Positions 11,234-21,616 of a DNA stretch of 35,788 nt are shown piece after piece. The stretch is from NCBI GenBank assembly GCA_029062045.1, contig JAIDQV010000140.1:1-35788 (forward strand). The letters are read 5' to 3'. Numbering within the stretch: the stretch's first letter is position 1; every line of letters starts with the position of its first letter. Source of the DNA: Clostridia bacterium. GTDB lineage: Bacteria; Bacillota; Clostridia; Christensenellales; Borkfalkiaceae. Position numbers and translations under genes: made by a program. The notes under the pieces are model-generated. The model was not told where the DNA came from. It did not search any database and worked only from the letters and a program-made list of their open reading frames with translations.

Positions 11234-12955
11234 ATGGGTTATAAAGAAACATACGAAAGCTGGCTTTCAGACGAGCGCCTTGCGCCCGATGCCAAAGCCG
11301 AGCTTGAAGCCATAAAAGATAATAAAGAAGATATAGAATACCGCTTCGGTGCGGAATTGGAATTCGGCACTGCCGGCATGCGCGGAATTATAGGCTACGG
11401 TACCAATATGATGAACGTCTACACCGTAAAGCGCGCAACCCAAGGACTTGCGGAATTTATTAAAACCAAGGGCGAGGACGCTATGAAGAGGGGCGTTGCA
11501 ATCTCTTACGACACCCGTCTTAAGAGCGACGAGTTTGCTACCGCCGCTGCCGAAGTTCTTGCGGCGAACGGAATTAACGCGTACAAGTTCAGCGACGTTC
11601 ACCCCGTACCTATGCTCTCATTTGCGGTGCGCGCACTGAACGCGTTTGCGGGAATTATGGTTACCGCATCCCACAACCCCAAGCAGTACAACGGTTATAA
11701 AGTTTACGGCGAGGACGGCGCGCAGATGTCACCCGACGACACTGCGGTAGTTGTTGAATACATACAGAAAATTACCGACTACCTCGGCGCACCCGCACCC
11801 ACTGCGGAACAGGCTAAAAAGCATATTAAAGCCGTGCCCTCGAAGGTTGACAAAAAATATTATAAAGAGCTTAAAAAGCTGACCATTTCCAAAAAGGCAA
11901 TTAAATCCTGCGGAAAAAATTTAAAACTTGTTTATACCCCCGTTCACGGTTCGGGCTACGTCCCCGTTACCACCATCCTCAAAAAGATAGGCATTAACGC
12001 GACGGTTGTTGAAGAACAGGTTAAGAAAGACCCCGAGTTTTCAACGGTTGAAGTTCCTAACCCCGAATTTAAAGAAACGTTATCCCTCGGCATTAAACTT
12101 GCGCAGAAGATTGACGCAACCGTAGTATTCGGCACCGACCCCGACAGCGACCGCCTCGGCGTTGCCGTTAAGAACAAGGAAGGCGAGTTTGAAGCGCTTT
12201 CAGGCAACCAGGTAGGCATACTTCTTTTAGACTACATTTTGACAAGACTTAAAGAGGACGGCAATTTGCCCGCAAACGCAGCTGTTGTTAAATCCTTCGT
12301 AACCACGGGTATGGCAAGACCCATTTGCCAGAAGTACGGCGTAACGCTTTTCGAAGTGCCCGTCGGCTTCAAGTTCATCGGTGAAAAAATCAAGGAATGG
12401 GAAAAAGACCACTCCCACACCTACGTATTCGGCTTTGAAGAAAGCTGCGGTTACCTTCGCGGAACGCATGCGCGCGACAAGGATGCAGTTGTTGCTTCGA
12501 TGCTGTGCGCGGAAATGGTTTGCTATTACGAGTCCGTCAGCAAAACCGTTTATCAGCGCTTGCAGGAAATTTACAGCGAGTACGGATACGTTCTCGATTG
12601 CAACATCTCTATCCCCTTCAAGGGCTTGAACGCTATGAAGGAAATGAACGCCGTAGTTGACGGACTTAAAGAAAAGCCTGCAACCGAGTTCGATATTTAC
12701 AAGGTTGCGACGGTAAGAGATTATTCCAAGAACGTTAAAACGGATATTGCAACCGGCGCGACCAGCGAGATAGGCTCTCCCCTCACCAACTGCGTATATT
12801 ACGAATTGGAAAACGGCAGCTTTATCTGCGTGCGTCCTTCGGGCACCGAACCCAAGCTGAAAATTTACTTCTCTGTAAAGGCGAACAACAAGTCCGACGC
12901 CGAGGCTGCGCTTGAAAAGATGCAGGCAGCCGTTAAGAAACTTTTGAAAGTTTAA
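11234..12955 (+). CDS. phospho-sugar mutase (phosphoglucomutase/phosphomannomutase)
   Basis: FGTAGMRGIIGYG, TASHNPKQYNGYK, GTDPDSDRLG, GFEESCGYL, RPSGTEPKLKIYF; SD GAGGAGG before ATG 11234 (ORF track starts at 11198). Confidence 0.93.
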   Translation: MGYKETYESWLSDERLAPDAKAELEAIKDNKEDIEYRFGAELEFGTAGMRGIIGYGTNMMNVYTVKRATQGLAEFIKTKGEDAMKRGVAISYDTRLKSDEFATAAAEVLAANGINAYKFSDVHPVPMLSFAVRALNAFAGIMVTASHNPKQYNGYKVYGEDGAQMSPDDTAVVVEYIQKITDYLGAPAPTAEQAKKHIKAVPSKVDKKYYKELKKLTISKKAIKSCGKNLKLVYTPVHGSGYVPVTTILKKIGINATVVEEQVKKDPEFSTVEVPNPEFKETLSLGIKLAQKIDATVVFGTDPDSDRLGVAVKNKEGEFEALSGNQVGILLLDYILTRLKEDGNLPANAAVVKSFVTTGMARPICQKYGVTLFEVPVGFKFIGEKIKEWEKDHSHTYVFGFEESCGYLRGTHARDKDAVVASMLCAEMVCYYESVSKTVYQRLQEIYSEYGYVLDCNISIPFKGLNAMKEMNAVVDGLKEKPATEFDIYKVATVRDYSKNVKTDIATGATSEIGSPLTNCVYYELENGSFICVRPSGTEPKLKIYFSVKANNKSDAEAALEKMQAAVKKLLKV

Positions 12956-18000: not shown

Positions 18001-19770
18001 CTACTCTACCGTTACGCTTTTGGCTAAGTTGCGGGGTTTGTCGATTTCCCGCCCCAACACTGCCGCCGCTTTGTATGCAAGCATTTGAACCGCAACTGCG
18101 GAAAGCAGCGGCGATAAAAACTTGTCGCACTTCGGCAAACAGGTCAACGGTAGCTTGCCCGAAAACCTTTCCTTTACTTCATCTATATTGGTAATTACCG
18201 CAACCTTGCCCCCGCGGGATAAGACCTGCTCGACAGCGTTCTCGCTTTTGCCTGCAAGCTCTTCGTCGGTGATTATCACAACGGAAGTCGTAGCGACGTC
18301 TACAAGCGCAAGCGTGCCGTGCTTTAGCTCTCCCGAAGGATACCCCTCCCCCGGCACGTAGGAAACCTCTTTAAGTTTGAGGCTTCCTTCAAGCGCAACC
18401 GCGTAATCCAAATCCCTGCCCAAAAAGTATACCCCGCTGCTTGAAGCGCAAACGTGCGCAAGTGAACGCATATCCAAGCCTTCAAGCGTTTGGGCTATTA
18501 GGGCGGGGATTTCATTTATTTTTCGAGCGCACCCGGCGTAAAAATTTTCACCCGCAAGCACTGCCGCCGCAAGGTACAGCGCGGCAATTTGACCCGTGTA
18601 GCTTTTGGTTGCCGCAACGCAAATTTCGGGGCCCGCCGCAACGGGCACAACGACCGTGGCAAGCCTTGTAAGCTCCGAGCGGTGGGAATTTGTAACGGCG
18701 ATGACCTTCGCCCCCAAAGAAAGCGCAAGCCGGGCCGCTTCGACCGTGTCCGCCGTCTCCCCACTTTGACTTACGGCAATGACCGCAGTCTTATTATTGA
18801 TTACGGGATTTTTATAGCGGAACTCGCCCGCCGTTTCGCACTCGGCAGGGATACGCGCAAAGCACTCAATATACCGCTTGCCGCAAATTGCGGCGTGATA
18901 AGCCGTTCCGCACCCCGTTAAAATTATCCGCTCTATTCCGTCAAGCTCTGCGCCGAGTTTGTCTTTTACCCCTGCGAAAGCACGTGCCGTTGCCTCGACG
19001 GAAAGGGGAGTTTCGCGCAGCTCTTTAAGCATGTAATGAGGGCACCCGTCCAAACCCAGGCTTGCCGACACCGCAAGATTTGGCTCTTTCAAACGCGAAA
19101 CGGGTTTAAAAAATTTGTCGAAAATTTTCACGCCGTCCGCGGTGATTTCGGCAACGTCGCCGTCCTCTAAAATGGTGATGTTTTCGCAAAGGCCGGCAAG
19201 GGCGGGCTCGTCGCTGGCGCAATAATTTCCGTCTTTGCCGTAGCCGATGATAAGCGGGCTTTTGTGGCGGGCGACGGCTATTTTTTGTTCACCTTCGCAT
19301 ATCGCCATAAGCGCATATGACCCTTTAAGCAACTTAACCGTTTCATACAAGGCGCAAACCAAATCGCCGTTATAGTTTTTTTGAAGAAGGTGGGCGACGA
19401 CTTCGCTGTCGGTATCCGAAAGAAATTTCGCGCCGCCCGCAATAAGCTGAGCTTTAAGTTCGGCGTAATTTTCGATAATGCCGTTATGCACGATGGCGAT
19501 ACCGCCCGCGCGGTGGGGGTGCGCGTTAATATCCGACGGCACGCCGTGGGTAGCCCAGCGGGTATGACCTATGCCGACGCGCGCTTGAACGCCTTTAAGT
19601 AGAGGCGCAAGTTTTTCCACCCTGCCCTGCTTTTTCATTATCTGAATTTTTCCGTCCGAAAGAAAAGCCGCACCCGCCGAATCGTATCCGCGGTATTCAA
19701 GACGTTTAAGCCCGCCCAAAACTGTTTCGGCGGCATCACCGCCGCCTATGTAACCGATTATCCCGCACAT
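18001..19770 (-). CDS. glmS: glutamine-fructose-6-phosphate transaminase (isomerizing)
   Basis: MCGIIGYIGGGDAAETVLGGLKRLEYRGYDSAG (GATase type 2) and two SIS domains; C-term KPRNLAKSVTVE. Confidence 0.97.
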   Translation of the reverse strand: MCGIIGYIGGGDAAETVLGGLKRLEYRGYDSAGAAFLSDGKIQIMKKQGRVEKLAPLLKGVQARVGIGHTRWATHGVPSDINAHPHRAGGIAIVHNGIIENYAELKAQLIAGGAKFLSDTDSEVVAHLLQKNYNGDLVCALYETVKLLKGSYALMAICEGEQKIAVARHKSPLIIGYGKDGNYCASDEPALAGLCENITILEDGDVAEITADGVKIFDKFFKPVSRLKEPNLAVSASLGLDGCPHYMLKELRETPLSVEATARAFAGVKDKLGAELDGIERIILTGCGTAYHAAICGKRYIECFARIPAECETAGEFRYKNPVINNKTAVIAVSQSGETADTVEAARLALSLGAKVIAVTNSHRSELTRLATVVVPVAAGPEICVAATKSYTGQIAALYLAAAVLAGENFYAGCARKINEIPALIAQTLEGLDMRSLAHVCASSSGVYFLGRDLDYAVALEGSLKLKEVSYVPGEGYPSGELKHGTLALVDVATTSVVIITDEELAGKSENAVEQVLSRGGKVAVITNIDEVKERFSGKLPLTCLPKCDKFLSPLLSAVAVQMLAYKAAAVLGREIDKPRNLAKSVTVE

Positions 19771-19777
19771 AAATACC

Positions 19778-21118
19778 TCAACCGTTTTCTTGTATTTTGC
19801 CGCTTATTATTTTGCAAGCCAAGGCGCACAGCTCTTCGCTTTCACCCTCAGCGGTAATACGGATTAACCGCTCGGTACCAGAAGGGCGGACGATTAAACG
19901 GACCTTAAGCTCTTCCCTCAGTTTTTCGGCAAGAGCGTCCACGCCCGTCATGGCGCGTTTTTTATCTACGACGGGGATATTCAAAGATACCTGAGGTAAA
20001 GTTTTGTATCCCTTCAAAAGCCCGTCGAAGCCGCGGTTTTCGACTACGGCTTCCATAAGCATAACCGCCGTAACAAGCCCGTCGCCCGTGGTTTCGTACT
20101 TTGAAAAAACTATGTGCCCGCTGCGCTCGCCGCCTAGCACCGCGCCCGTTTTAGCCATAGTGTCGCAAACGGTTTTATCGCCGACGTCGCACACTTCGCA
20201 CTTTATGCCCCGCGCGGCAAGGCTACCTATAAACCCGCCGTTGGACAGGACGGTGCAAACCACTTTGCCGTGCGCAAGCTCGCCGCGGGTTTTTAAATAG
20301 TTGGCAAGAATATACATTTCTTCGTCGCCGGTGATGACGTTGCCGCTTGAATCAACCGCGATGCATCTGTCGGCGTCGCCGTCGAACGCAAAACCTATAT
20401 CGAGCGAATTTTTAACGACTAAATCGCACAGTGCTTCGATGTGGGTAGAGCCCACGCCGTCGTTCACGTTGGTGCCGTTGGGGGTATCGCCTATCATATA
20501 GGTTTTTGCACCCAAAGCCTCGAACACGCTGCGCGCAATCTGGAAGGCGCTTCCGTTAGCCCCGTCAAGCCCTATGCGCATACCCTTGTAAGAACAGGTT
20601 GCAAGGGAAATAAGATGCCCTATGTAACGGTTTCTTCCCGCAAAGAAGTCCACCGTGCGCCCTATATCCTGCCCGCGCGCAAATGGAATATCTTTACCGC
20701 CGAAAGATGTAAAATCGCCGTCCAGATAGCTTTCGATAACAGAAATAACGCTGTCTTCCATCTTTTCGCCGCGCTCGTTTAACAGCTTTATGCCGTTATC
20801 GTAATAGGGGTTGTGGCTTGCCGAAACCATTATTCCGCAGTCGAACCCGTCGCACCTTGTGACGTAAGATACGGAAGGGGTGGTGGTAACGTGCAGTATG
20901 TGCGCGTCCGCGCCAACCGAAGTGAGCCCCGATGCAAGTGAGTATTCAAGCATATATGAGGAAAGGCGCGTATCCTTGCCGATGACCGCGCGGCACTTGC
21001 GCCCCAGGCGCGCACCGAAGTACCAACCGAGAACTTTGCCAACCTTAAAAGCCTGTTCGGCGGTAATGGTGGTACCCGCCTCGCCCCTGAAACCGTCTGT
21101 TCCGAAGTATTTACCCGT
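19778..21118 (-). CDS. glmM: phosphoglucosamine mutase, apparent ACG start
   Basis: Extension of ORF 19778-20953 upstream in frame gives (M)GKYFGTDGFRGEAGTTITAEQAFKVGKVLGWYFGARLGRKCRAVIGKDTRLSSYMLEYS, the conserved GlmM N-terminus; SD AAGGAGG at 6 nt; in-frame TAA two codons upstream; TASxSHNP-type motif VSASHNPYYDNGIK. Confidence 0.9.
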   Translation of the reverse strand, partial: TGKYFGTDGFRGEAGTTITAEQAFKVGKVLGWYFGARLGRKCRAVIGKDTRLSSYMLEYSLASGLTSVGADAHILHVTTTPSVSYVTRCDGFDCGIMVSASHNPYYDNGIKLLNERGEKMEDSVISVIESYLDGDFTSFGGKDIPFARGQDIGRTVDFFAGRNRYIGHLISLATCSYKGMRIGLDGANGSAFQIARSVFEALGAKTYMIGDTPNGTNVNDGVGSTHIEALCDLVVKNSLDIGFAFDGDADRCIAVDSSGNVITGDEEMYILANYLKTRGELAHGKVVCTVLSNGGFIGSLAARGIKCEVCDVGDKTVCDTMAKTGAVLGGERSGHIVFSKYETTGDGLVTAVMLMEAVVENRGFDGLLKGYKTLPQVSLNIPVVDKKRAMTGVDALAEKLREELKVRLIVRPSGTERLIRITAEGESEELCALACKIISGKIQENG

Positions 21119-21564
21119 ATTTTACCTCCTTCACGCATATAAGCGGGAATTCATATCAGCTTTAAAACAAATAAGCGAGGGCACATTTCAGCGGGGATGC
21201 ATATGAAAAGGAGGAAGCAACTCCCTCCACTTTCGTAAAAAAATCGGTGAAGACGGGATTTTTTTCCGTCGACAAATTTCGCCTTTTAACCTCTTCTTCC
21301 CCCGCCACCCGACATTTATCTGCCCGCACGGTGCATATGTTTTAAAATTTATATGAAAAAAATTACAAGTGCGGCTAAAACGCTTGAACGGCGAAAAATC
21401 TGAGCCGCCGTAAATATGTGCGCCGCCGCAAAATCCGTATTAAAGCATATGCCTTGAAAATAATTTGTGTTACGGCGCATACGGGACTGTTTTTTGTATT
21501 TTTGCCGCCTTGGTGCATATATTCAAACTGTCGTTAATTGTGGCATATATGGCACTCAATTAAA

Positions 21565-21593
21565 TTGACAACGGTTTTTGCATATGTTAAAAT
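21565..21593 (+). promoter_or_regulatory. promoter of K+ transporter (TTGACA - 17 - TAAAAT) with GCATATG in the spacer
   Basis: Spacing read directly. Confidence 0.75.
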
Positions 21594-21616
21594 GAAGCCG
21601 ATTTCGGACAACGTAA

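Follow-up and report, generated by a model that had tools for sequence, protein, structure and literature searches.

Comparison of orthologues gives good support to ACG as the true initiation codon of one glmM lineage, here called glmM-A, in a genus of gut Clostridia. ACG is normally rejected by bacteria as a start signal, and glmM serves a step of cell-wall sugar synthesis. Taking the account as a whole, we consider it likely that this is a true ACG start read as fMet through a mismatch with the aid of an extended Shine-Dalgarno (SD) sequence, that it originated in an overlap with glmU, that its strength has not been driven to that of ATG, and that a low, IF3-sensitive output plausibly accompanies it.

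The window analyzed here is a stretch of 35,788 nucleotides from a MAG of 1.44 Mb (192 contigs, 82% complete). The same MAG carries a second glmM-glmS pair on contig C136, in which glmM has an ordinary ATG start. Throughout the text we use glmM-A for genes of the window type and glmM-B for genes of the C136 type.

The initiation site of glmM-A

Read on the minus strand, the site runs ...GCGTG AAGGAGGT AAAAT ACG GGT AAA TAC TTC GGA ACA GAC GGT (Table 1). AGGAGG occupies 21130-21125 and the A of ACG lies six bases on; in the reading frame of the gene the codons are, in order, TAA, AAT and ACG. The sequence-only reading of this DNA had proposed exactly this start, with an SD at a suitable distance and an upstream TAA that leaves no ATG, GTG or TTG alternative, and these points are borne out by the letters of the minus strand. 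It had also pointed out that the listed ATG open reading frame (ORF; start 20953, 391 aa) lacks the conserved N-terminus, and this ORF indeed begins 55 codons inside the frame that ACG opens. No canonical in-frame start that would keep the GlmM N-terminus is present in the window or in the relatives G056, G007, G009, G090, G088, G068 and G075.

Table 1. Features of the glmM-A region, in window coordinates.
Feature	Position	Strand	Remarks
glmM-A initiation codon ACG	21116..21118	minus	C at 21117; kept in 43/79 genus orthologues
Extended Shine-Dalgarno AAGGAGGT	21124..21131	minus	AGGAGG-to-ACG spacing six bases
In-frame TAA barring any start further up	21122..21124	minus	Its T is common with the SD stretch
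glmM-A, phosphoglucosamine-mutase-type gene	19778..21118	minus	446 codons counted from ACG to the stop at 19778
Leader separating glmM-A from the divergent trkH-like gene	21119..21616	minus	Four CATATG
AGGAGGTAAAATACGGG(T), resembling the 3' end of the GlmU-like gene in relatives (..AGG TAT AAA AAC GGG TAA)	21113..21130	minus	By eye
glmS	18001..19770	minus	Directly 3' of glmM-A; ATG start; TIGR01135 636.8 bits

Alignment by phmmer pairs residue 2 of the glmM-A product with the second residue of GlmM proteins of solved structure (7ojr and others), and therefore ACG stands exactly at residue 1, where the earlier reading had expected it. Furthermore, codons 2-56 have pN/pS values of 0.00-0.12, as compared with 0.12-0.29 for the remainder of the gene (five relatives), a stronger purifying selection from which we infer that the stretch is translated.

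The gene product and its neighbors

The window gene resembles the GlmM family (TIGR01455) in its full-length match, in its four Pfam PGM_PMM domains (I-IV, all above cut-offs), in the SASHNP, DGDADR and RPSGTE motifs of its translation and in having glmS as a neighbor. It differs in that its score of 432.6 bits lies under the NCBI equivalog cut-off of 447.55, whereas the C136 copy, at 533.5 bits, lies above; we hence call the window protein GlmM-type rather than a formal equivalog. Domain I spans residues 3-132, such that codons 2-56 carry much of it, and the nearest solved structures to the protein are GlmM. Domains, nearest structures and context agree in pointing to GlmM, and the predicted glucosamine-phosphate mutase activity has support from context, namely the glmS gene downstream, with which glmM-A probably forms a single operon, and the 29 relatives that yielded no glmM besides the ACG gene. 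A further phosphosugar mutase relative lies in the window at 11363-12565 on the plus strand (90.7 bits to the GlmM model).

Distribution of the ACG start

Among the 79 glmM-A orthologues of the genus, 43 start at an ACG that is not immediately preceded by a canonical codon, and another six have ATG or TTG immediately 5' of the ACG. The other starts are ATG (12), GTG (8), ATA (3) and TTG (2), and the last five genes have another codon at the start place, each with an ATG at most 10 codons upstream. One of ATG, ACG, ATA, GTG or TTG thus stands at the exact start place in 74 of 79 genes, which is beyond chance. In glmM-B the start is ATG in 32 genes and TTG in one, and ACG in none of the 33. An exact-pattern scan found ACG-glmM in 41 genomes, every one in the genus, and the same pattern gave no ACG-start glmM in 305 genomes from 17 other genera of the family. 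In a quick protein tree, in which many branches are weak and some rows long, glmM-A forms one clade confined to the genus (78 rows, SH-aLRT 93) and glmM-B clusters with copies of other genera in the family.

The sequence-only reading had asked whether relatives would show ATG, and had allowed for an assembly error or a recent mutation. Independent genomes whose proteins are 92, 89, 81, 77 and 76% identical to that of the window share the ACG, as do others far below. Dozens of separate genomes across deep glmM-A branches have ACG at this position, so that it is inherited, and both a sequence error and a recent mutation are excluded.

In 29 genomes, many of them more than 90% complete, the ACG gene is present and glmM-B is not found. 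Two of these 29, G068 and G075, have no glmM other than the ACG gene, the overlap with the upstream gene is absent, and no canonical in-frame codon lies between the upstream stop and ACG. From this pattern of gene content, it looks true that the ACG-start gene matters for viability in relatives without glmM-B. The earlier description of the gene as essential needs correcting for the window's own genome, where the ATG-start pair on C136 provides a second copy, and apparently holds for the 29 relatives.

Six genomes of the genus reported as 91-95% complete (G014, G015, G016, G017, G044 and G078) gave no clear glmM with the query used, only distant phosphosugar mutases. In G012 (L246), glmM overlaps glmU and its start place is occupied by GCG; an in-frame ATG lies eight codons further 5', inside glmU, and no SD is visible. 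One glmM match (L190; G260:C6:99439-100785) was listed with an in-frame TAG.

Probable origin in an overlap with a GlmU-like gene

In many relatives the gene 5' of glmM-A encodes a GlmU-like acetyltransferase, which matches the C-terminal part of GlmU and ends in ..GRYKNG-stop. The end of this gene, AAC GGG TAA, lies over the start of glmM, a-ACG GGT AA, in a different frame. By parsimony this adjacency is the ancestral state, and the ancestral glmM-A start was ACG or ATG. In the ancestor of the genus, the end of the GlmU-like gene probably lay inside the start of glmM, and glmM would have been translated by termination-reinitiation, under which ACG and ATG may be about equally acceptable. The operon of the window's lineage would later have shed the GlmU-like neighbor and retained the ACG. 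An acetyltransferase query against G000 returned only distant relatives, the GlmU-like neighbor having been lost in this lineage, and the window stretch GAGGTAAAATACGGGTAA looks like a relic of the former overlap.

The overlap does not force the C of the ACG codon, because a C-to-T change at the middle base would be silent in glmU in 24 of 24 overlapping ACG genes, and ATG versions of the glmU-glmM overlap exist. It does retain the mark of a functional SD: the glmU codons that make up the SD are GGG in 28/31 and AGG in 28/31 overlapping relatives, against usages of 21% and 27%.

The leaders of glmM-A genes that lack an adjacent glmU share another feature. CATATG is about 21-fold over-represented in the 450 bases 5' of these genes (108 seen against 5 by shuffling), and it is present in the window (21200-21586) and, among relatives whose glmM-A has no glmU beside it, in 38 of 41 leaders, mostly as GCATATG, at most 250 bases from the start and with some spacings of 16, 32, 48 or 64 bases. 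The 609-kb contig C1 of G019 has only two clusters of at least three CATATG, one of which (89123-89175) lies near another acetyltransferase-like gene. CATATG is thus a possible operator of amino-sugar genes. Rfam recognized no RNA element in the glmM-A leader, its sole hit in the window being a tRNA at another place. A conserved upstream mini-ORF was rejected by eye, as frames differ among the window-type leaders.

Shine-Dalgarno strength and decoding

The SD match is 6 nt or longer in 38/43 ACG genes, compared with 7/33 glmM-B genes (Fisher p = 3e-9), and an extended SD at good spacing would make a mismatched start workable. General use of ACG starts in the genus was not seen in the genes sampled. 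Among 461 genes of G019, ATG after a strong SD is tenfold enriched, whereas a strong SD followed by ACG was seen once against 5.6 expected, and that single case has an ATG directly next. A stricter scan of 547 genes from parts of two genomes gave no other ACG start, at a sensitivity of about half on known cases (22/43 caught).

Nor is there a consistent sign of a dedicated initiator tRNA with a CGU anticodon: most genomes have the CAU form of the initiator loop, and the loop GGGCTCGTAACCC was found in only three (G020, G044 and G089), two of them without an ACG-start glmM. As the genes sampled show no second clear ACG start and a CGU loop is not consistently present, glmM appears exceptional, and the normal CAU initiator tRNA is the most likely decoder. 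It would probably read ACG as fMet through a mismatch at the second position.

Selection, drift and competing explanations

For overlapping genes, silent C/T sites changed a mean of 3.9 times on the tree and the middle base of the start codon five times. In the other genes the middle base changed twice where the silent mean is 5.2; two changes are not extreme, since 10/32 silent sites are equally low. Several species have gone back to ATG. In overlapping genes, where the pace is that of a silent site, ACG may be tolerated without being selected for, and the two comparisons together neither reveal selection towards ATG nor prove selection for ACG. We put forward tentatively, as somewhat short of an even chance, the broader reading that ACG is a genus-wide natural initiator for GlmM, in many species that of the sole glmM found, that it was inherited from an overlap in which ACG and ATG were interchangeable, and that the start of an essential gene is near neutral because reinitiation and a strong SD set its rate. 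A weak start may plausibly also keep GlmM, and the coupled GlmS, low and IF3-sensitive.

Weak initiation could instead be favored in itself, with IF3 repressing the ACG start as it does that of infC and sigR and so coupling the supply of GlmM and GlmS to the state of the translation machinery. We regard this as possible, while leaning against it. The build of the site matches that of Streptomyces sigR, in which IF3 represses a non-canonical start that is found genus-wide and has an extended SD (PMC5472188). Some lineages that left ACG for ATA (3), TTG (2) or GTG (8), against 89% ATG among the starts picked in G019, hint at a preference for weak initiation, but the independent events are few. 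The region around the start is more structured in glmM-A than in glmM-B, and infC in six sampled relatives likewise lacks a canonical start at its N-terminus. Against this, the C/T pattern fits neutrality too, twelve glmM-A genes have ATG at the same place, and a reason why IF3 should control amino-sugar synthesis is not known.

In overlapping relatives the frame of glmM is +1 to that of glmU, and a protein joined at ..RYKNG/KYFGTDG would have no gap (its spanning peptide would be ..RYKNGKYFGTDG..), such that a +1 frameshift at GGG-TAA could yield a GlmU-GlmM fusion in which ACG is merely the end of glmU and glmM has no start of its own. The silent-site-like drift of the start codon in overlaps and the GCG of G012 would fit such a fusion, which we nonetheless judge improbable: it is inapplicable to the window and to other ACG genes without an overlapping glmU, and G002 and G004 retain ACG though the stop is absent at the site (GGG CAG). 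The SD, moreover, lies at initiation distance from ACG and nine bases before GGG, as compared with three bases at the prfB +1 site, and the GGG AGG codon bias in glmU marks it as a working one.

Initiation at the ATG at 20953, with the upstream part untranslated, is the start given by the mechanical ORF list; we consider it very improbable, since codons 2-56 are more constrained at the protein level than the remainder, hold much of domain I and align with solved GlmM from residue 2. A mistake in sequencing or assembly, or a mutation that arose lately in a single strain, has only the rarity of ACG starts in its favor and is refuted by the dozens of separate genomes across deep glmM-A branches that share the codon in place. 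Scarcely credible is C-to-U editing of the mRNA from ACG to AUG, as occurs in plant chloroplasts (PMC9845219), given that C and T freely interchange in the DNA at this site across the genus.

Implications

Start prediction restricted to ATG, GTG and TTG misses the glmM-A start and would cost the window's GlmM 55 residues. With dozens of natural variants (ACG, ATA, GTG, TTG and ATG, overlapping or free-standing), glmM-A makes testable both the weight of start-codon identity in a cell-wall gene and a link through IF3 between translation and wall synthesis. Among the literature matches listed, 40 of 109 from a search that covered few subscription journals, none describes a bacterial gene with a conserved ACG start, and a query combining infC, IF3 and ACG found no match.

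Comparison with known systems

ACG is also found at the start position in the DNA of chloroplast and plant mitochondrial genes. In those genes RNA editing can convert the codon to AUG, as documented for chloroplasts (PMC9845219); for glmM-A no such system is known. Two bacterial genes are closer in kind to glmM-A. The sigR gene of Streptomyces has a GTC start in 32/34 species and an extended, conserved SD, and is repressed by IF3 (PMC5472188). It shares with glmM-A a non-canonical start that is conserved through a genus, the extended SD and its escape from normal start prediction, but it differs in the codon, in encoding a sigma factor and in the demonstrated repression by IF3, and the glmM-A start is the more variable, with ATG forms occurring. 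The infC gene for IF3 is likewise a core gene with a conserved near-cognate start, ATT or ATC; there the mismatch falls on the third base, whereas in ACG it falls on the second, and infC controls itself. We know of no system that edits the start codons of bacterial mRNAs from C to U, and of no link between glmM and initiation fidelity.

In six of the sampled relatives (G090, G007, G079, G042, G034 and G068; L225-L228, L230 and L231), infC lacks ATG, GTG and TTG where its conserved N-terminus begins, which leaves ATT, ATA, ATC or a similar codon as the start; ten other sampled relatives have ATG or TTG there. Features of genes with conserved non-canonical starts such as infC and sigR, namely a conserved codon, no canonical alternative and, as in sigR, an extended SD, are found in glmM-A, which in this respect resembles these IF3-controlled genes, and by analogy with them control of glmM-A by IF3 is plausible.
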